From a candidate division WOR-3 bacterium (lineage in GTDB: Bacteria; Hydrothermota; Hydrothermia; Hydrothermales; JAJRUZ01), in NCBI GenBank assembly GCA_039804025.1, contig JBDRZP010000022.1, forward strand, positions 1 through 33,465: a DNA stretch of 33,465 nucleotides, given 5' to 3'. The notes under the pieces were generated by a model. That model did not search any database and was not told the origin of the DNA. It saw nothing but the letters and a program-made list of their open reading frames with translations. A program made the position numbers and the translations under genes. Of the stretch, positions 1 through 10,657 are shown in pieces. Position 1 is the stretch's first letter; each line of letters starts with the position of its first letter.

Positions 1-807
1 ATTTAATGCATAATCTAAAACTAAATTCTGATAAATCCTTGTTTTTCCAGATAAACCAAGATTGAATCTAACATTTTCATTTTTGTAATTTATGCTATCT
101 CTTATTCCAGTTTGAGAACTAATCAAATAGGGAATAAAATCATTTCTTTTTTCTTTTGAATAAATTCTTTCAGGAATTATAATTTCTGCAGCATTCATCC
201 AAACAGATGGATTATCCTTTGGGATTGAAGGGAAAAAATAAATTTCAAAAGTTTCTCTTGGTCTTGTTCTTCCTAATACAATCTTCCACTCGTTTTTCTC
301 CTTACTTTCAAACCTTATAGAGGAAAAGGGAATTTTGAATTCACATGACCAGAAAGAATCAGAAATAAATGATTTTACTTCAAAATATGTATCAAAAGAC
401 ATATCTTCTGTTTCAATAGGTGTTGGACCTTTAGTTAAATCAGCCTGAACTCCTAAAGGGTTTGTTATAAAAACATAACCTTCTTTTCTTCCACCATAAG
501 TATTAAGATATATTAAAACCATATCATCCATCCCAATTTCATCTCTTTTTGTTAGAGTTTTCCTTATAGTTTTAATATCATCATAGCATTTAAAGGCAAA
601 GTATATATTCTCATTATCATAACCGATAAATACTTCAGTTTTGAAAGAAGGAATTTTCCCTTCTTCTGGTTGAAATTCAATAAATTCAGTTACTTTTGCT
701 GCATTTTCCCATTCTTTATCAATTACACCATCTATTTTTGGACTTTCTTTGAATCTCTCAAGTGTTATTGTATAAGATGTTATTAAAATTAAAAAGAATA
801 GGTTCAT
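1..807 (-). CDS. DUF5916 / CBM9-like outer-membrane-associated protein, partial
   Basis: The reading frame is open for 269 codons from ATG at 807 to the window edge, so the C-terminal part is missing. An N-terminal hydrophobic stretch (MNLFFLILITSYTI) looks like a signal peptide. Residues about 20-70 carry a CBM9-like pattern: IDGVIDKEWENAA, then FIEFQPEEG, then a T-x-V-x-x-GYD-x-x-NIYFAF block. This is the layout of the family whose C-terminal half is the DUF5916 beta-barrel. The start is supported by AGGAGGTG about 5 nt upstream. The preceding ABC transporter stop lies only 2 nt away, so the gene is probably the last member of the lanthipeptide transcription unit. Whether it has any role with the peptide is unknown; DUF5916 proteins occur widely in FCB bacteria without lanthipeptides. 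Confidence 0.8.
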   Translation of the reverse strand, partial: MNLFFLILITSYTITLERFKESPKIDGVIDKEWENAAKVTEFIEFQPEEGKIPSFKTEVFIGYDNENIYFAFKCYDDIKTIRKTLTKRDEIGMDDMVLIYLNTYGGRKEGYVFITNPLGVQADLTKGPTPIETEDMSFDTYFEVKSFISDSFWSCEFKIPFSSIRFESKEKNEWKIVLGRTRPRETFEIYFFPSIPKDNPSVWMNAAEIIIPERIYSKEKRNDFIPYLISSQTGIRDSINYKNENVRFNLGLSGKTRIYQNLVLDYALN

Positions 808-809
808 AA

Positions 810-2339
810 TTACACCTCCTTTTTATTTTCTTTTAAATCTAAAATCCTGTCAAAAAATTGATGCCATTCATCGCCTTTATGCATTATAACAACAAGAGTT
901 TTATCCCTTGATAAATCTAAAATATGTTTCATTAAAACTTTTGTGCTCTCTTTATCTATATTAGCAAGAGGCTCATCTAAAATATATAAATCTGCTTCCT
1001 TTGAAAAAATAAGAGCAATGGCTAATTTCTGCATATTGCCAATAGATAATTCATGAGGATATTTATCAACAAATTCCATCAATCCAAAATCTTTTAAAAG
1101 TTTCTCCTTAATAGGTAATTCTTTTATCTTTAATAAAGGAAATTCAAAAGGAAGTGTTAAAGAGGAAATTCTTGGGGGTAAAATAACATTTCCACTTTGC
1201 ACTTTAAGTAACCCACTCATTATATTTGCAAGTGTTGTTTTTCCTGAACCATTTGGTCCTTTTATCAATATTTTCTCACCCTTTTTAATTCTTAATGAAA
1301 AATCTTTAAATACAAAATTTTTATCATAAGAAAAACAAACATTTTCTAAAATAACCTCATCTTTTACCTTATAAAATTTCACTTTTTCTTCCTTTTCAAA
1401 TTCATATATCCTGTTTATTATTGTAAGACTTTTGTTTAATTGGGCAAATGGTGCAAAAAATTGAGAAACTGCTGTAACACTCCTCCAGAAGGCAGTTACA
1501 AAGGCTAAATAACCACCAAAAGTCATTTTCCCTTTTAACAAAAATATAGCACCTACTAATAAAGAACAAAAATCACTAATATTCATTATAAGATAAATAC
1601 CCGTATTATAAGTAGTTATAATCTTGAAATTTCTGTAAAGAGCATTTAAATATTTATTGAAGGCAAAAATAGTTGATTCAAGAACTTTTCCGAGAAGATT
1701 TAAAATATTTACTGCTTTATATGAAGAAATATTTTTATTAAGAAAATTAATAAATTCGCTCTCTGTTTCCCTCTCAACTAAAGTTGCAGATTTTATCTTT
1801 TGAGATAATAAATTTGAAAAATATACAATAAATGGAATTAAAATAAACATAATAAGGGTAGCTTGCCAGGAAATATATATAAGAACAGAAGTAAATGCAA
1901 TTACCCTTGTTAAATTGGTGCTTATATTTCTTATAGAGGATATAAAGAGGGGGAAAGCTTCCATTACATCTTTATAAACTCTTCCTATGAAATATCCTTC
2001 ACCTTTTTGTAAAATATTTGCATAATCTTTATTATAAAAGGACATCAATGTTTTTTTAAGAATTTTACTTAAAATTTTATTTTCAAAAGATTTGCCCCAT
2101 AGTTCAACAAAAAAAGAAATTAAATTAATAAATATGCCTAAAAATAAATACGAAGATATTAAAATAAAGAAAATTTTTAAACTTTTTCTGATAACTGCTT
2201 CATCAAAGATTAATTTTGTTAAAATGGGATGAAAGATTGCCTCTATTGCATAGATTAAACAAATGGTAAATATAAAAAGGGAAAATTCTTTATTTAACCC
2301 CTTTAAAAAATAAAAAACTTTTTTTATATTATCTCTCAT
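810..2339 (-). CDS. ABC transporter, fused TM and ATPase domains (probable lanthipeptide exporter)
   Basis: This is a 509-aa half-transporter with about six transmembrane helices in residues 20-300 and an ATPase domain from about 325. Walker A is GPNGSGKTT at 361-369, a degenerate signature LSIGN is at 431-435, Walker B LYILDEP is at 452-457 and the H-loop His is H487. No N-terminal C39 peptidase domain is present, so it is not a leader-cleaving LanT; removal of the leader must be done elsewhere. The start overlaps the LanKC stop in an ATGA arrangement, which implies translational coupling. The ATPase domain is short, about 185 aa, and a clear Q-loop Gln is not obvious. Export of, or immunity to, the modified peptide is inferred from position. 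The family assignment is secure, the substrate is not. Confidence 0.88.
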   Translation of the reverse strand: MRDNIKKVFYFLKGLNKEFSLFIFTICLIYAIEAIFHPILTKLIFDEAVIRKSLKIFFILISSYLFLGIFINLISFFVELWGKSFENKILSKILKKTLMSFYNKDYANILQKGEGYFIGRVYKDVMEAFPLFISSIRNISTNLTRVIAFTSVLIYISWQATLIMFILIPFIVYFSNLLSQKIKSATLVERETESEFINFLNKNISSYKAVNILNLLGKVLESTIFAFNKYLNALYRNFKIITTYNTGIYLIMNISDFCSLLVGAIFLLKGKMTFGGYLAFVTAFWRSVTAVSQFFAPFAQLNKSLTIINRIYEFEKEEKVKFYKVKDEVILENVCFSYDKNFVFKDFSLRIKKGEKILIKGPNGSGKTTLANIMSGLLKVQSGNVILPPRISSLTLPFEFPLLKIKELPIKEKLLKDFGLMEFVDKYPHELSIGNMQKLAIALIFSKEADLYILDEPLANIDKESTKVLMKHILDLSRDKTLVVIMHKGDEWHQFFDRILDLKENKKEV

Positions 2340-4978
2340 GAAATTTGATCTAAAGTAAAATCTGCTTCATCAAGGGTTAAGACTCTATGAATTGTTCGCA
2401 TAACACCAGCAATTCCTGTTGCATAATCACAGGAGATTCTAAAAAGATTATCCCCTGGAACAGCATATCCATCAGGAAAAGAAAGTAAATAAATATCTAT
2501 AAGCCCTGTTAGAGGACGATTCATCATCTCCAAATATTGAACATCATTTGTGAAAATATAAACATCAATTAGAGTGTCAATAAAGCTTGATATTCCGAAT
2601 AAAATTCCTGGAAAAACTGAATATTTTCTACAAATATCCGGAATCAACCTTTTTAATTTATTAAAAAATTTATATCTTAATAATACTTTGATAATTCCTG
2701 CGGTACCGCACTCTATGTAATGTTCTAAAGTTTTATCCCCTATTGCCTCAGGAAAACTTATAACATCTTTTTCTATTTTTCTTCCATTTTTTAAATCAAA
2801 AAAAACTCCCTTTATTCCATACTCAAAATACTTTTTTTCCTTAGTAACCTGATATAATCTTAATAAGAAAAGGGAAACTCCACTCTGTCCATATCCATAT
2901 CCTAAATATACTTTATTTTCATATTCCCAAAAAATGCCCTTTTTATTTATTTTACTTACTTCAATTATTTTATTTCCATAATTTATTGCCCTTTCCAGAA
3001 ACTTTGCCTCTGAAGTAATTAGATAAAAAAATAAATTGGTAAGTCCAATTCCTGCCATTCCATAAAAAAGGGAATGATTTTTAAATTTTAAAGGACTTTT
3101 TTCGGTAAGTTCAATTATCTTTAAAGATTTATCTTCATATCCTAATTCCCAGAGTGCCCAGGCAATTCCTGAAAGTCCTGTAATAAAACCAGGAGGATAG
3201 TCCTTTTCATTTACTCCTTTTAATTTTTTTTCTATCCAATAAAATGCCTTTTTAGGTATATCAAAATTACATTTTTTTAAAGCATATAAAATTCCGGTGG
3301 CACCAAAACCTAAAGAGAGAGAATTAGTGTGATAGAGAAAGGGATCGCTTGGAAATAACCTATCTTCCCTTTCATCCTCTATGTGATTAAGAATAAAATT
3401 TCCGAATCCTTCCACTATTTTTTGTAATCTTTCTTTACTTAATTTTTTTGTGATAAATCCTGCTTTTTTAACAACTTTATTTGAAGAAACCAGAGATTTT
3501 CTTACATATTTGGAAATATAAGGAATTTTATTAACATTTTCATTAACACTATTAATAAGAATATTTATACAATTGTAAATCCTTTTTGACCAGCCTAAAT
3601 CTTTGAGTATCATTTTTAATACATTATCATAAAGATCTTTTCTAAGATCAGAAAATACATTTATAGGAAAAAGAAAATAAAACATAAGTGCACCCATACT
3701 GTAAAAATCAGCATTAAAAGAAAAGAAATTTCTATCCACTTTTCTAAAACCAGGGGTAAAAAGTAAAAATGGTTTATCAATTCCTTTTCTTATTGCACCT
3801 TCAAAGTCTATAAATTTAACCTTATAATTTTTTGGATTAACAATTACATTGTAAGGGGAAATATCACCTAAAATTATCCCTTTTGAATGAATAATTTCTA
3901 AAGCATCTAAAAAGTTTAAAAAAACTTTTTTATATATCTTGTAAAATTCTTTACTTTCCCTTGAGTTAAAATTTAATTTTAAAATAGGATGAAATTTTGA
4001 AAAAAATAATTCACGCAAATTTTTTTCACGGATATACTCCATAACTAAAAAAGTATGCTCCCATTCTTGAAATAATTCTATAGGTTTGGGTGCAATATTT
4101 GTATCTTTTAAAATTTTTAATATTTCGTATTCTTTATGCAAAAGGGTTACTGCGTCATTCCCCAAATTATCTTTACAAGTATAAGGTCTTGCCTCTTTTA
4201 TTACTACATATTTATTTGAATTTCTATCTTTAGCTAAATAAACTCCGCCGGTATTGGAAAAATGAAGAGCCTTTTCAATTAAATACTGTCCATTTTTTAA
4301 AGCCAACTCGTTAGGCTCTTTATCTTCTAAAGGAAATGGATCTTTTACCCAAGGAGGAAGATTAAAATATGGGAGTCTCTCGTCTTTTATATATTCTCCA
4401 TTAGGAGACACAATCATATATTCCTTCATTCCCATTATATCTACAAATGTAATTCTTTTAAATCCTCCGTATCTATAATATAAGACTTTGCAATCCTTAT
4501 ATCTTCTATCTGAAAGAATATAAGGTCCTTCTTCTTCTTTAAGTTCGCTATATAGAATTTCTATTATTTCTTTAAATTCATTTTCATTTGGATAAATAGT
4601 AATGAATTTTCCTGAAGCACTTCTTTGCCAATCCTTGAAATTCATCATGGAAAGAATTGTTTTATCCAGAGCAAATTTAAAAGGAATTTTTTTATCTATT
4701 AGAATTTTTGCAACTTTTGCAAGTATTCTTTCTGCATTATTTATGGTAGATGAAATATGAATTTTCCAGCCCTGAGTCATTATTTCTGAATTTAGAGGGA
4801 AAACATGAAACCATAAACCATCTCTTATTATTTTCCAATTTTCTTTTTTATTATTCAGTATTTGCATAATTATGTTTAAAAACTCATTAGAGGGGGAATA
4901 CATATTTTCAAAAGGCTCATAAAATTTGTCTGAAAGTAAAGTATATAAATATTTTATAACATGCCTTTTACTTCTCAT
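2336..4978 (-). CDS. lanKC: Class III lanthipeptide synthetase (lyase-kinase-cyclase)
   Basis: The 880 aa match the usual length of LanKC enzymes. Residues about 40-220 form the phospho-Ser/Thr lyase-like region (WKIHISSTINNAERIL at 71-86, then GPYILSDRRY and YYRYGGF). The kinase domain runs from about 230 to 480, with Lys261 in VVIKEAR, catalytic GDISPYN at 371-377 and metal-binding DFE at 391-393, which is the form typical of LanKC. Residues about 545-870 form a LanC-like toroid with repeated Gly-rich segments (LSLGFGATGILYAL, GLSGIAWAL, FYGMAGIGL, GYGYGQSGVSL, IECGTAGI, DYATGIAGVM). The Cys and Cys-His zinc ligands of class I, II and IV cyclases are absent, which points to class III rather than LanL. 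The gene follows the precursor gene by 71 nt across an attenuator hairpin and has no visible Shine-Dalgarno sequence, so it is probably made at much lower levels than its substrate. Confidence 0.92.
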   Translation of the reverse strand: MRSKRHVIKYLYTLLSDKFYEPFENMYSPSNEFLNIIMQILNNKKENWKIIRDGLWFHVFPLNSEIMTQGWKIHISSTINNAERILAKVAKILIDKKIPFKFALDKTILSMMNFKDWQRSASGKFITIYPNENEFKEIIEILYSELKEEEGPYILSDRRYKDCKVLYYRYGGFKRITFVDIMGMKEYMIVSPNGEYIKDERLPYFNLPPWVKDPFPLEDKEPNELALKNGQYLIEKALHFSNTGGVYLAKDRNSNKYVVIKEARPYTCKDNLGNDAVTLLHKEYEILKILKDTNIAPKPIELFQEWEHTFLVMEYIREKNLRELFFSKFHPILKLNFNSRESKEFYKIYKKVFLNFLDALEIIHSKGIILGDISPYNVIVNPKNYKVKFIDFEGAIRKGIDKPFLLFTPGFRKVDRNFFSFNADFYSMGALMFYFLFPINVFSDLRKDLYDNVLKMILKDLGWSKRIYNCINILINSVNENVNKIPYISKYVRKSLVSSNKVVKKAGFITKKLSKERLQKIVEGFGNFILNHIEDEREDRLFPSDPFLYHTNSLSLGFGATGILYALKKCNFDIPKKAFYWIEKKLKGVNEKDYPPGFITGLSGIAWALWELGYEDKSLKIIELTEKSPLKFKNHSLFYGMAGIGLTNLFFYLITSEAKFLERAINYGNKIIEVSKINKKGIFWEYENKVYLGYGYGQSGVSLFLLRLYQVTKEKKYFEYGIKGVFFDLKNGRKIEKDVISFPEAIGDKTLEHYIECGTAGIIKVLLRYKFFNKLKRLIPDICRKYSVFPGILFGISSFIDTLIDVYIFTNDVQYLEMMNRPLTGLIDIYLLSFPDGYAVPGDNLFRISCDYATGIAGVMRTIHRVLTLDEADFTLDQIS

Positions 4979-5005: not shown

Positions 5006-5030
5006 AAAAGGGGCGAGGCTCCCTCGCCCC
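5006..5030 (-). terminator. Attenuator hairpin between lanA and lanKC
   Basis: A perfect 9-bp G+C-rich stem (GGGGCGAGG / CCTCGCCCC, 5010-5018 with 5022-5030) has a 3-nt loop. Read on the minus strand it is followed by TTTT and then AT-rich DNA. It lies 20 nt after the precursor stop and about 30 nt before lanKC. It is the most G+C-rich structure in the window. Partial termination here would yield a short, abundant precursor mRNA and a rarer read-through transcript for the enzymes, a common arrangement in RiPP clusters. Confidence 0.75.
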
Positions 5031-5049
5031 CACTTATGTTATTGCTCCC

Positions 5050-5157
5050 TTATTCTATCTCATTGCAGCAGTTAGCTATACTGCTAGTGAGACTTACAGG
5101 AGCCTTTGCGCTAGGCATTGCTACTGGTAATTTTTGTAGACTTAGTACTACTGCCAT
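5050..5157 (-). CDS. lanA: Class III lanthipeptide precursor peptide
   Basis: A 35-codon gene runs from ATG at 5157 to TAA at 5050, below usual gene-calling cut-offs. The N-terminal half contains VVLSLQKLP (residues 3-11), which resembles the ILxLQ-type leader motif recognised by class III synthetases. The C-terminal half is a core rich in modifiable residues: Ser22, Thr24, Ser25, Ser26, Cys30 and Cys31. Ser22-x-x-Ser25-x4-Cys30 fits the S-x2-S-x(2-5)-C pattern from which class III enzymes form labionin or lanthionine. The C-terminus after the Cys pair is NEIE. A very strong ribosome site (AAGGAGGTG) sits 5 nt upstream, in contrast to the synthetase. The leader cleavage site cannot be read from the sequence; a cut near Pro15 to Pro20 would leave a core of 15-20 aa. 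The function is inferred from the motif and from lying just ahead of LanKC. Confidence 0.85.
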   Translation of the reverse strand: MAVVLSLQKLPVAMPSAKAPVSLTSSIANCCNEIE

Positions 5158-5161
5158 CTCA

Positions 5162-5171
5162 CACCTCCTTT
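5162..5171 (-). promoter_or_regulatory. Strong Shine-Dalgarno site of lanA
   Basis: Read on the minus strand this is AAAGGAGGTGT, nearly the full anti-16S complement, followed by GAG and the ATG. Most other genes in the window have weak or no such site, so this fixes the start and suggests high translation of the precursor. Confidence 0.85.
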
Positions 5172-5178
5172 CTTTTAC

Positions 5179-5210
5179 CCCTGAGTTGGACTTTAACCAA
5201 TTTCTCAGGG
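5179..5210 (-). other. 5'-leader hairpin upstream of lanA
   Basis: CCCTGAG (5179-5185) pairs with CTCAGGG (5204-5210), and the stem continues as TTGG (5186-5189) with CCAA (5197-5200) across a 3-nt bulge. It ends about 8 nt before the ribosome site. If the AT-rich TATAAT at 5215-5220 is the -10 box, the transcript would begin almost exactly at this hairpin, placing it at the extreme 5' end where such structures often protect mRNA. Confidence 0.6.
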
Positions 5211-5214
5211 TCTT

Positions 5215-5220
5215 ATTATA
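5215..5220 (-). promoter_or_regulatory. Candidate -10 box for lanA
   Basis: The minus strand reads TATAAT within a TATATATAATAAG tract. No good -35 hexamer or TGn extension is visible at the right distance, so the call rests only on the -10 match and on the spacing to the leader hairpin. Confidence 0.35.
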
Positions 5221-5233
5221 TATATAACAATTT

Positions 5234-5253
5234 AAAAAGCCTTTTCGGTTTTT
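5234..5253 (-). terminator. AT-rich terminator after the sigma-like gene
   Basis: On the minus strand AAAAACC-GAAAA-GGcTTTTT forms a short stem with a T tail, just beyond the stop codon at 5267. The adjacent T20 homopolymer on the plus strand (5249-5268) runs into the stop codon. Such a hairpin would separate this gene from lanA. Confidence 0.45.
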
Positions 5254-5266
5254 TTTTTTTTTTTTT

Positions 5267-6265
5267 TTAACGAATCTGGAATTTTTTTATGATTAAAACT
5301 TTCTTATTATTTTTAGGAGAAAGAAAATTAATTTTCCCTTTTAAATAATCCTCTCCATTAAATATAAAAATTCTTTTCTTTGCCATCTGTTTTTTAAAAT
5401 CCCTCAAAGAATTTTTGTTTGAAAAAATTACCAAAAGCTCATCCTCTTTAATATTTACATTCTCCAAATCTTCATATAATAAAATTCTTATAAAACAGAA
5501 TCTGCATTTTAAAAAAATTGAAAAATCCTTTCTCTTATATTCTTTTAAATCACATGAGCTACATTCACATAAATATTTCAAAAAATTTCTTAAAATATCT
5601 AAAAAATCCTTCGCCTTAATTAACCTGTATAAACTCATATATTTTTTCATATATAAAATATTCTTTCGTCTCCAATCTTTATAATAATCTTTATTATCTT
5701 TTCTCCATTTAATAAAATAATCAGGATTTCTCCTTCTCCAATTTTCCCGAAGTTCTTTCACCTTCTCTTTATTCTCATTTAACCACTTCCTCCTTAATTC
5801 ATTTCTACTTCTTTTTAAAGGATTAATTTTACTCCTTATCTCACTCCATATATCCTTCATTTTTTCATAAGAAATATTCAATTTTTCTGAAATTTCTTTT
5901 AAATTAAACCCTTGCCTTATTAAATTTATAATCCATAACTCTTTTTCATTTAATCTTTTGTATAAATTATTTTCAAATCTTCTTAAAAATTCATCACTTC
6001 TTACTTCATTTAAAATCTCAATTTCCTCATAATCTTTTAAAATTAATCTTTTTTCCTTTTTTAAATAATTTAAAAAATGATTTTCCAAGGACTTAAAAAA
6101 ATAATTCCTAAACTCCATTTCATCCCCTTTAAATTTTTCTTTACATTTTTGAAAACATATAAAAGCTTCTCCTAAAAGATCATCTTTATGATGAAAAAAA
6201 TTATATTTTTTACAAAAATTTAAAATTTTAATATTGATTTCTTTTAAATATTCTTCAAAATTCAT
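5267..6265 (-). CDS. Sigma-70-like protein with Trp/Arg-rich repeats and Cys cluster
   Basis: The protein has 332 aa. Residues about 25-72 resemble sigma region 2 (DDLLGEAF, then FRNYFFKSLENHFLNYLKKEKR). Residues 105-147 resemble region 4 with a helix-turn-helix (GFNLKEISEKLNISYEKMKDIW). A basic segment at 155-213 follows with repeated W-R/N-P-x-Y units (WLNENKEK, WRRRNPDYF, WRKDNKDYY, WRRKN), like repeats seen in some phage-related DNA-binding proteins. A Cys cluster follows (C233, C235, C238, then C254, C257), probably a zinc ribbon, and then an uncharacterised C-terminal tail. This is not a housekeeping sigma factor. It is likely a DNA-binding regulator or ECF-like factor. Its position 110 nt upstream of lanA on the same strand makes it a candidate regulator of the lanthipeptide genes, but nothing in the sequence proves this. 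Confidence 0.6.
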   Translation of the reverse strand: MNFEEYLKEINIKILNFCKKYNFFHHKDDLLGEAFICFQKCKEKFKGDEMEFRNYFFKSLENHFLNYLKKEKRLILKDYEEIEILNEVRSDEFLRRFENNLYKRLNEKELWIINLIRQGFNLKEISEKLNISYEKMKDIWSEIRSKINPLKRSRNELRRKWLNENKEKVKELRENWRRRNPDYFIKWRKDNKDYYKDWRRKNILYMKKYMSLYRLIKAKDFLDILRNFLKYLCECSSCDLKEYKRKDFSIFLKCRFCFIRILLYEDLENVNIKEDELLVIFSNKNSLRDFKKQMAKKRIFIFNGEDYLKGKINFLSPKNNKKVLIIKKFQIR

Positions 6266-8473: not shown

Positions 8474-10657
8474 CTAAAAAATAATTTTTATTTCAAAACT
8501 TGGAACAAAGGGAATTTGATATAATTCTCGCCTTACAGGTGGTTCTTTATCATAATCATAATAATATAAAAATACATTTTTTCTATTGTAAACATTTATT
8601 ATACTCAAGGAATAAAAGCCCTTAATTTTTTTTATTTTGAAATCCCTTGAAAGGGAAATATCAAGCCTGTGATAAGGTGGAAACCTTACACTATAAGGAT
8701 AGGATTCAATTTCATCCCATATAACCTTTGGATATCTATCTGGATATGGATTATAAAAGAATCTATACCTTTTAATAACATCTGTGAAGGGTGAACCAGT
8801 TGTATATAAAAAATTTAACCCCAGATCTAAATTGAATATTAACTTATAAAATAAACTTAAAGAAAAATTGAAGGTTTTATCCCACCTCATTGAATGATAT
8901 TTGTTTTCCTTTTCAAATTTTCCGTGAGACTTTAATACTGTCAAACTTAAATTAAAATTTAATTTTCCAAAGGTCTTTTCAATAAAAGAATCAAAACCGT
9001 AACTTTCTCCTTGCCCTTTTAAAAACAAGGTTTTATCAGGATTTAATGGGTCATAACTTTTTATTTCATAGTCAAGAATGTAATCATACTTCTTGTAAAA
9101 GATTTCAAAATCAATTTTACCCCAATCTGGCAAATAGGAAATTCCTGTTATATAATGTTTTGAATTCATTGGCCTATAACCATCAAAAATTGTTACCCAG
9201 TAATAAAAGGGATCAAAAACTTCTGAAAAGTTAACAGCTATTAGATACTGATTGAAAACTCCTGTTGCAAACTTTATTGCAAGGTTTTCCCTCAGAAAAT
9301 ATTTTAAATTAATTCTTGGTTCTATTCTAAAACTTTTAGCATTTCTCTCGGGTGTTTCCTTGATTCTTAAATAAAAATAATTTGTCCTTAAACCCGGATT
9401 AATTCTTAAATTATTTACTTTGAAATTTAATTCAGAAAAGAAAGAAAGGATGTGAGGATTTCCTTTATCAAGTTGTTTAATACCAAAAATATCATTCTGA
9501 AATTTTCCATTTAGATTCTCATATTCAAAACCAAAAGTTTTATCAAAACTTCCCTTAAACTCTCCCTTCCATTTTAAACCAGCTATGGAAACAGGATTCC
9601 AGAGGGAAATAAACTCTCCTATTTTAAAATAACTGAAAAAAGAAGAGAAAAATAAATTTATTTCATGAAAGTTTTTTCTATGTATATAAAAAGTTCTAAA
9701 GGAAAAACCATCATTTCCCCATTTTAAAAGGATTTCATCTTTTTTCTGATAAAATAAATCTCTACTTGTAATGTAGGAGAATTTAAATCTTAAAGAGGGT
9801 GATTTTTCAATCTGATAGGAAGATAAAATATCAAAAAAATGATAGGGAAATTCAAAATCCCTGTTTATCAAAGAAATATATTTATCAAAATAGGTTCTTC
9901 TCAAAAAAACAAGGTAATTTCCCTTAAAAAGCTTTCCTTCATTTAAAAGGCGGAAAGATAAAAAACTTAAAGCTAATTCAAAATTTATTTTTTCTGAATT
10001 ACCAGGTTTTATTTCAGCATATAAAAGAGAGGATAAAGCATTTCCAAATTGAGCCCCATAAGCTCCCCTATAAAATTCATACCTTGAAAGTGCTGAAAGA
10101 TCAAAAACCGAGAAAATTCCACCCAGATGATAGGGGTTATAAAGGGGAATTTCATCAATAAGTGTTAAATTTTCCTGAGGAGAACCACCCCTAACAGAGA
10201 ACCTGCCTGATAAATCTGTTACCTGAACCACACCAGGTAAGGTGGAAACTGTTCTTAAAAGATCTCCTTCAATAAATTTTGGAAGTCTCTTTAAAATTTC
10301 TGTTTCCCTTTTTACGGCAGAAGCCCTTTCCTCTTCAAATTCCTTTTTTCTTGAATAAATGATAATTTTTTCAATTTCTATTTCAATCTGATTTAGCTCA
10401 ACATTTAAAATTTTATTCTCTCCTTCCCTTAATTCCACTTCTAAACATTTTTCCTCATAACCAACAATTTTAAAACATAAAAGATATTTTCCTTCTTTTA
10501 ATTTTGAAATAACATAAAAACCCCTTTCATCTGTAAGTGTTCCTTTATTTAAATCCTTTATATAAACAAAAACAAAAGGAAGAGATTCACTTGTTTTTTT
10601 ATCTATCACCCTTCCAGAAATACTTGAAAAGGCTATAAGAATTTTAAACAAAATCAT
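8474..10657 (-). CDS. TonB-dependent receptor with carboxypeptidase-regulatory domain
   Basis: The 727 aa begin with a short signal sequence. A CarbopepD_reg-like domain follows at residues about 14-95 (ISGRVIDKKTSESLPFVFVYI, then GTLTDERGFYVI, then YLLCFKIVGYEE). The plug domain is at about 115-225, with the typical RGGSPQENLTLIDEIPLYNPYH segment, and the rest is a beta-barrel rich in alternating aromatic strands that ends in FEIKIIF, a terminal strand typical of outer-membrane proteins. It is shorter than many SusC proteins and no SusD follows; the partner is a DUF4249-like lipoprotein. It overlaps or abuts neighbours in a five-gene minus-strand operon. The substrate cannot be told. Confidence 0.9.
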   Translation of the reverse strand: MILFKILIAFSSISGRVIDKKTSESLPFVFVYIKDLNKGTLTDERGFYVISKLKEGKYLLCFKIVGYEEKCLEVELREGENKILNVELNQIEIEIEKIIIYSRKKEFEEERASAVKRETEILKRLPKFIEGDLLRTVSTLPGVVQVTDLSGRFSVRGGSPQENLTLIDEIPLYNPYHLGGIFSVFDLSALSRYEFYRGAYGAQFGNALSSLLYAEIKPGNSEKINFELALSFLSFRLLNEGKLFKGNYLVFLRRTYFDKYISLINRDFEFPYHFFDILSSYQIEKSPSLRFKFSYITSRDLFYQKKDEILLKWGNDGFSFRTFYIHRKNFHEINLFFSSFFSYFKIGEFISLWNPVSIAGLKWKGEFKGSFDKTFGFEYENLNGKFQNDIFGIKQLDKGNPHILSFFSELNFKVNNLRINPGLRTNYFYLRIKETPERNAKSFRIEPRINLKYFLRENLAIKFATGVFNQYLIAVNFSEVFDPFYYWVTIFDGYRPMNSKHYITGISYLPDWGKIDFEIFYKKYDYILDYEIKSYDPLNPDKTLFLKGQGESYGFDSFIEKTFGKLNFNLSLTVLKSHGKFEKENKYHSMRWDKTFNFSLSLFYKLIFNLDLGLNFLYTTGSPFTDVIKRYRFFYNPYPDRYPKVIWDEIESYPYSVRFPPYHRLDISLSRDFKIKKIKGFYSLSIINVYNRKNVFLYYYDYDKEPPVRRELYQIPFVPSFEIKIIF

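Follow-up and report, generated by a model that had tools for sequence, protein, structure and literature searches.

Genes of the lan locus

The window (the whole stretch of DNA analysed, 33,465 nt from a candidate division WOR-3 bacterium) carries on its minus strand, in collinear order, a precursor gene (lanA), a hairpin, a lanthionine synthetase gene (lanKC), an ABC exporter gene and the start of a gene for a DUF5916-like outer-membrane protein. lanA (5050-5157) encodes the 35-aa peptide MAVVLSLQKLPVAMPSAKAPVSLTSSIANCCNEIE and was recognized from its translation, from the NF038160 profile and from homologues located 5' of lanKC genes. Its leader motif, V-L-S-L-Q, spans residues 4-8 (LSLQ being residues 5-8), and its core contains Ser22, Thr24, Ser25, Ser26, Cys30 and Cys31. 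An earlier note had proposed this minus-strand frame as an unannotated precursor; translation confirmed its coordinates as well as the positions of LSLQ, Ser22, Ser25, Ser26, Cys30 and Cys31, and the longer antisense frame that it mentioned is a 63-aa plus-strand frame at 5036-5227 which overlaps lanA. Its remark that standard gene calling does not reach down to so short a gene is only partly right: such genes are often missed, but common gene callers usually have a minimum of 90 nt, which 35 aa exceeds. About 55% of class III precursors were reported to be un-annotated (PMC7268733).

The ribosome-binding site 5' of lanA, AAGGAGGTG (5162-5170, minus strand), had been described as the best of the window; ranked across the window it does come first, but tied with the site of the gene starting at 807 (minus strand), a member of the same gene set. 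One small frame in the window combines leader, labionin regex and ribosome site. Leader, labionin motif and ribosome site were found together in none of 300 dinucleotide-preserving shuffles of the window, and leader plus labionin motif in a small frame in one of 300. The leader motif alone appeared in 82 of the 300, which speaks for the 35-aa frame being a chance ORF and the true precursor lying elsewhere, but the position of lanA, its ribosome site, its homologues and its motif contradict this, and no second lanA copy was found in its own genome, which makes a chance ORF highly improbable.

Against the NCBIfam profile NF038160 (lanthi_III_c) the peptide scored 26.9 bits (E 4.2e-6), thus missing the cut-off of 27 by 0.1 bit, with a match covering positions 3-32 of 33, i.e. 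the whole profile; in a six-frame search it scored 24.8 bits. No frame passed the NF038160 cut-off in a six-frame search of 147 WOR-3 genomes, and the SapB/AmfS family NF033212 gave no match to lanA at E 0.1. We are confident that the frame is the LanA of a class III lanthipeptide, with a whole LanKC/ABC route as the explanation: lanA, its homologues, the conserved residues, the synthetase and the exporter are all directly readable in the DNA.

The synthetase and the lanA-lanKC hairpin

lanKC (2336-4978, minus strand) encodes a class III lanthionine synthetase of 880 aa with lyase, kinase and cyclase parts, as judged from NF038151, RamC_N, Pkinase, LANC_like and an alignment with ThurKC. Its score with NF038151 was 710.2 bits, well over the cut-off of 575 for class III, and this gene lying next to lanA supports the class III reading of the precursor already put forward in the earlier note; with the class IV profile NF038150 it reached 434 bits, under the cut-off of 650. 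The alignment to ThurKC (8sao) scored 297.7 bits. In ThurKC numbering, derived by hand as chain number + 3, the residue pairs kept (ThurKC/window) are K65/K72, H67/H74, K94/K101, K108/K115, K117/K124, D152/D157, R163/R169 and R191/R201, together with the DFE motif D391-F-E393. These ThurKC residues were reported as needed or closely conserved (PMC10604976). At the places of the zinc ligands, read by hand, the window protein has E756, L793 and F794 and ThurKC has Ser726, Phe770 and Asp771, i.e. the cyclase is devoid of zinc ligands.

Between lanA and lanKC lies a G+C-rich hairpin with a 9-bp stem, GGGGCGAGG-gag-CCTCGCCCC (5010-5030, minus strand). The predicted folding energy of this region is -26.1 kcal/mol (z -3.9), and hairpins are present at the corresponding place in the genomes G121, G023, G045 and G002. 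The hairpin is probably an attenuator or an mRNA 3' end, either of which would give more peptide than enzyme. An Rfam search of the window gave no match.

Distribution in WOR-3 and origin of the contig

A LanKC above the cut-off was found in seven of the 147 WOR-3 genomes; to these G002 can be added, where LanKC is spread over two frames. In this genome (locus L009, 1465-4147) the overlapping frames, of 511 and 386 aa, are cut between kinase and cyclase, which reflects either a sequencing error or a true split enzyme. G045, G042 and G040 fall in the phylum of the window, and the WOR-3 records of the LanKC tree are labelled Caldifarciminota, a phylum in the NCBI taxonomy. Sigma-54 activator genes lie close 5' of two of the lan clusters (L116 8698-9939 in G121, L118 3754-5004 in G002) and are possible regulators. 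The genome of the window is an incomplete, 47-contig assembly, which would suit a contaminating contig and a cluster foreign to WOR-3, but this is most improbable given a contamination estimate of 0.31%, a flank that along 6.2 kb matches a genome of the same genus at 92-100% per 250 nt, a GC content of 0.273 in the cassette versus 0.270 in the rest, and similar clusters in other WOR-3 genomes.

Exporter and outer-membrane neighbours

The lanT gene (810-2339, minus strand) codes for an ABC exporter of 509 aa (Pfam ABC_membrane and ABC_tran) without a peptidase domain; an exporter of this type adjoins lanKC in the same place and order in relatives. In G042 and G040 the exporter is on the strand opposite to lanKC. 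The next gene (1-807, minus strand) is cut by the contig end and gives the first 269 residues of a CBM9-like/DUF5916-like outer-membrane protein, which scored 22.2 bits with CBM9_1, below the cut-off of 23.4. Contig C3, which overlaps the first 172 nt of the window at 99%, carries a 514-residue continuation of this frame. We rejected the gene as a lanthipeptide-specific part, homologues of the first 269 residues being present in 125 of the 147 WOR-3 genomes; what stands out is its adjacency to the lan genes.

A cultured WOR-3 strain was reported to have inner and outer membranes (PMC12285271). In G121, as in the window, a CBM9/DUF5916-like protein comes directly after the exporter. In G002 the contig ends soon past the exporter, and a CBM9/DUF5916-like protein, 52% identical to that of the window, sits upstream. 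In G036, G045 and G023, a TonB-receptor-like barrel (PF14905 with plug) lies directly 3' of the exporter; no PF14905-type barrel was seen adjoining the G042 exporter. Since none of the 147 genomes has more than 10 PF14905 matches, we estimate that barrel adjacency at three of eight loci is unlikely to be due to chance. Outside WOR-3, MacB/FtsX permeases follow the exporter in Duganella, Stenotrophomonas and Janthinobacterium, with HlyD as well in Duganella, and the lan locus of a Sphingomonas MAG has a C39-ABC protein plus HlyD. A search of PDB sequences with two of the outer-membrane proteins gave no match. The window itself contains, 3 kb from the cluster, a CarboxypepD_reg/plug protein of 727 aa (8474-10657, minus strand) weakly resembling the barrel of the G036 cluster.

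Two unrelated cassettes between the same neighbours

Upstream of lanA, a promoter/5' leader element (5158-5262, minus strand) of about 90-105 nt contains the inverted repeat CCCTGAG (5210-5204)/CTCAGGG (5185-5179) and recurs elsewhere. Copies were found in the same genome on C17 (96%), C39 (87%), C37 (97%) and C41 (short, 89%) and outside it on C17 of G030 (96%), with shorter matches on C3 and C14 of G030, on C36 and C28 of G028 and on C4 of G027. The element precedes peptide genes in G028, and unrelated or decayed genes on C39, C37 and the G030 contigs C3 and C14. The stem of the inverted repeat is kept in C39 with a different loop. On G028 C36 (L144, 7300-7760), the element is followed by two peptides that look secreted and carry CDC and, later, CxC patterns; after them come a hairpin and, at a greater distance, a DUF5916 protein.

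Next upstream (5267-6265, minus strand) is a gene for a sigma-70-like protein (TIGR02937, 50.7 bits, cut-off 42.9), which recurs beside the leader element in the WOR-3 family of the window. It was considered as a regulator of the lan cluster and rejected: no homologue occurs at any other lanKC locus examined, and the gene therefore belongs to the slot described below, not to lan clusters.

The sister species G030 matches the window from 12592 to 5173, the match stopping 16 nt before lanA. Per 250 nt, identity stays at 92-100% as far as 6092 and falls to 81, 76 and 63% in the sigma-like gene. Past the matching flank, G030 carries genes for a 34-aa Cys peptide, a radical SAM/SPASM protein (best NCBIfam model TIGR04463, 191 bits for a cut-off of 525), an ABC exporter and a 61-aa Cys peptide, followed by the start of a related outer-membrane gene (L141, 7427-10838). 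The neighbours of the lan cassette thus enclose, in G030, a peptide pathway unrelated to it. The radical-SAM cassette of G030, with its two short Cys peptides and ABC exporter, is also present in the genome of the window, on C17 (L142, 1-5055; 98.2% over 3,519 nt), where a disrupted sigma-like gene lies on one side of it and a further copy of the outer-membrane gene on the other.

We tentatively propose for this WOR-3 family a standard slot, composed of a sigma-70-like gene, the recurring promoter/leader of about 90 nt with its small hairpin, a cassette and a DUF5916-type outer-membrane protein, in which unrelated cassettes may swap by homologous recombination through the fixed ends, the regulator and the outer-membrane partner serving any peptide. 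If so, the outer-membrane partner would handle export, uptake or anchoring whatever the peptide chemistry. The comparison with the sister species makes it testable whether cassettes of unlike chemistry swap behind a common promoter while sharing an outer-membrane partner.

The same arrangement could have arisen in the assembly. C22 and C17 are letter-for-letter identical over 75 nt of the leader element and over 83 nt of the outer-membrane gene, and the 75-nt repeat, located right at the junction (window 5265-5191, C17 from 4096 down), may have swapped the cassettes; lanA would then truly follow the sigma pseudogene of C17, and the flank of the window would truly be joined to the radical-SAM cassette, as it is in G030, whose cassette is 98% identical to that of C17. 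Such a chimera is unlikely, though far from negligible: the drop to 81, 76 and 63% between the window and G030 sigma genes, against 92-100% beyond, is what a recombination block would leave. A chimeric join leaves the lanA-lanKC-exporter unit untouched.

Conservation of the precursor core

Leader-bearing small frames, which the earlier note had suggested looking for 5' of lanKC genes, were found at seven of seven other WOR-3 loci. G036, whose LanKC is the nearest to that of the window (46%), has three precursors, all with the S-x2-S-S-x3-C-C arrangement of the window peptide. The precursors of G002 and G121 have S-x2-S-x2-C, those of G045 and G023 have two motifs, and the single precursor of G040 is without a clear motif. 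In G042 three precursors lie in tandem (L071, 5159-5839) as 174-nt repeats with hairpins between them. They share the leader MKKVL[KR]LQKV[NS]DKKGGKPRP, but their cores differ widely; these abound in Ser, Tyr, His and Arg, with a single Cys late in the sequence and without a clear labionin motif. They could be a fast-varying set of cores, perhaps with non-thioether crosslinks.

The CC core extends beyond WOR-3, to Duganella, Janthinobacterium, Stenotrophomonas, an Oxalobacteraceae MAG, a Sphingomonas MAG, a Bipolaricaulota MAG and several Actinobacteria. A LanKC tree was built from 51 rows, namely the 78 usable ones (broken-frame rows being dropped) minus 27 of a large actinobacterial clade; in it the LanKC of the window falls in an 18-row clade with a support of 100/98. 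Independently of the core, small frames were picked by the leader motif only, from 1,300 nt about the start site of each of 84 lanKC genes. Sixteen of the 18 clade loci yielded 26 such frames, and 34 of the 66 other loci yielded 58. SS-x3-CC was present in all 26 clade frames versus none of the 58 others; a stricter labionin regex was matched by 21 of the 26 and 34 of the 58. The two clade loci without a precursor in the leader scan were L046, where a SVTSSSSDCC frame is present but without a clear leader, and L076, for which no frame was found.

With the columns anchored on SS-x3-CC, so that the anchor positions are constant by construction, the Ser22 place in 26 precursors compiled from WOR-3 and other loci is occupied by Ser (24), Thr (1) or Gly (1) and the Thr24 place by Thr (16), Ser (6), Gly (3) or Ala (1). 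The earlier note had named a lack of Ser/Cys conservation among homologues as the outcome that would speak against it; the comparison gave the opposite, with SS-x3-CC throughout the clade. The S-x2-S-x4-C core that it had proposed is therefore right as to the conservation of Ser and Cys and too small as to the unit conserved, which is Ser25-Ser26-x3-Cys30-Cys31 plus Ser22 (24/26). SS-x3-CC is a cross-phylum core type following one LanKC clade. Since it travels with that clade, it is probably a substrate feature of the enzyme.

Proposed maturation and ring pattern

The short leader (about residues 1-18, including V-L-S-L-Q) would dock on LanKC, whose kinase domain would phosphorylate core Ser/Thr residues and whose lyase domain would eliminate the phosphate to give dehydro residues. 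The metal-independent cyclase would then add Cys30 and Cys31 onto these, forming a labionin or lanthionine across Ser22/Ser25 to Cys30 and a second thioether between Ser26 and Cys31, i.e. two parallel i to i+5 pairs. The ABC protein is predicted to export the peptide, and the adjoining outer-membrane protein may also take part in the pathway. No peptidase gene was found in the lan cluster, and the leader would be trimmed by a peptidase encoded elsewhere. Peptidase matches in the genome comprise, for M16, one adjacent pair each on C14 and C15 and a further match on C6, and for S9 two matches; none of these was retained as leader peptidase, for want of a link to the lan cluster.

The sequence on which type III cyclases act has been described as SxxSx(2-5)C (PMC11251773); a single ring joining Ser22/Ser25 with Cys30 (S-x2-S-x4-C) would satisfy it, Cys31 being then a free thiol available for an intermolecular disulfide or for metal binding. 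The second Cys of such a core need not form a thioether: in paenithopeptins a labionin sits within a wider ring closed by a disulfide (PMC8960859). This single-ring structure deserves serious consideration but is the less probable one, as Ser26 and Cys31 vary no more than Ser25 and Cys30 do in the 26 leader-selected precursors, a constancy that a spare thiol does not need, and as most relatives lack a third, downstream core Cys for an intramolecular disulfide. The same constancy leads us to prefer a structure with two thioethers to a single ring with a spare thiol, and most likely both Cys30 and Cys31 are used in rings. The alternative offered in the earlier note, that Ser25 and Ser26 both matter in a pairing with Cys31, gains support in so far as Ser26 is as constant as Ser25; its ring pattern is a prediction.

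Comparison with known systems

Class III lanthipeptides have been studied mostly in Actinobacteria and Firmicutes. The kind of molecule described here is a known one; its host and setting are unusual, and class III lanthipeptides are now placed in WOR-3, a poorly known phylum. Our literature search, in which subscription journals were thinly covered, found nothing joining WOR-3 with lanthipeptides or biosynthetic gene clusters and nothing spelling out any of six CC-core strings; nor did it find a described ring structure for the SS-x3-CC core type. Labyrinthopeptins are class III lanthipeptides that combine a labionin motif with at least two Cys. These features are common to the paenithopeptins (PMC8960859) and to the window peptide, but both known groups have a distant Cys partner whereas the window core has a vicinal pair only. 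None of six natural-product terms occurs in the main text of a 181-MAG study of WOR-3 (PMC12542636).

ThurA1/ThurKC of Bacillus thuringiensis has the LanKC architecture and all the catalytic residues listed above in common with the window (PMC10604976). ThurKC was reported to install up to 11 dehydrations in its substrate (PMC10604976); the window core has far fewer Ser/Thr. Noursin is likewise made by a class III synthetase (LanKC-Hbt) and has the leader motif LELQEL, but it contains one Cys and a His crosslink (PMC10206099), whereas the window peptide is devoid of His. The window peptide is also like lanthi_III_c (NF038160), with the same xLxLQ leader and SS-x3-CC core, and members from Duganella, Stenotrophomonas, Bipolaricaulota and Streptacidiphilus exceed its cut-off. 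Compared with many relatives, the window peptide differs by an Asn in place of Asp before the Cys pair and by a Lys after it.
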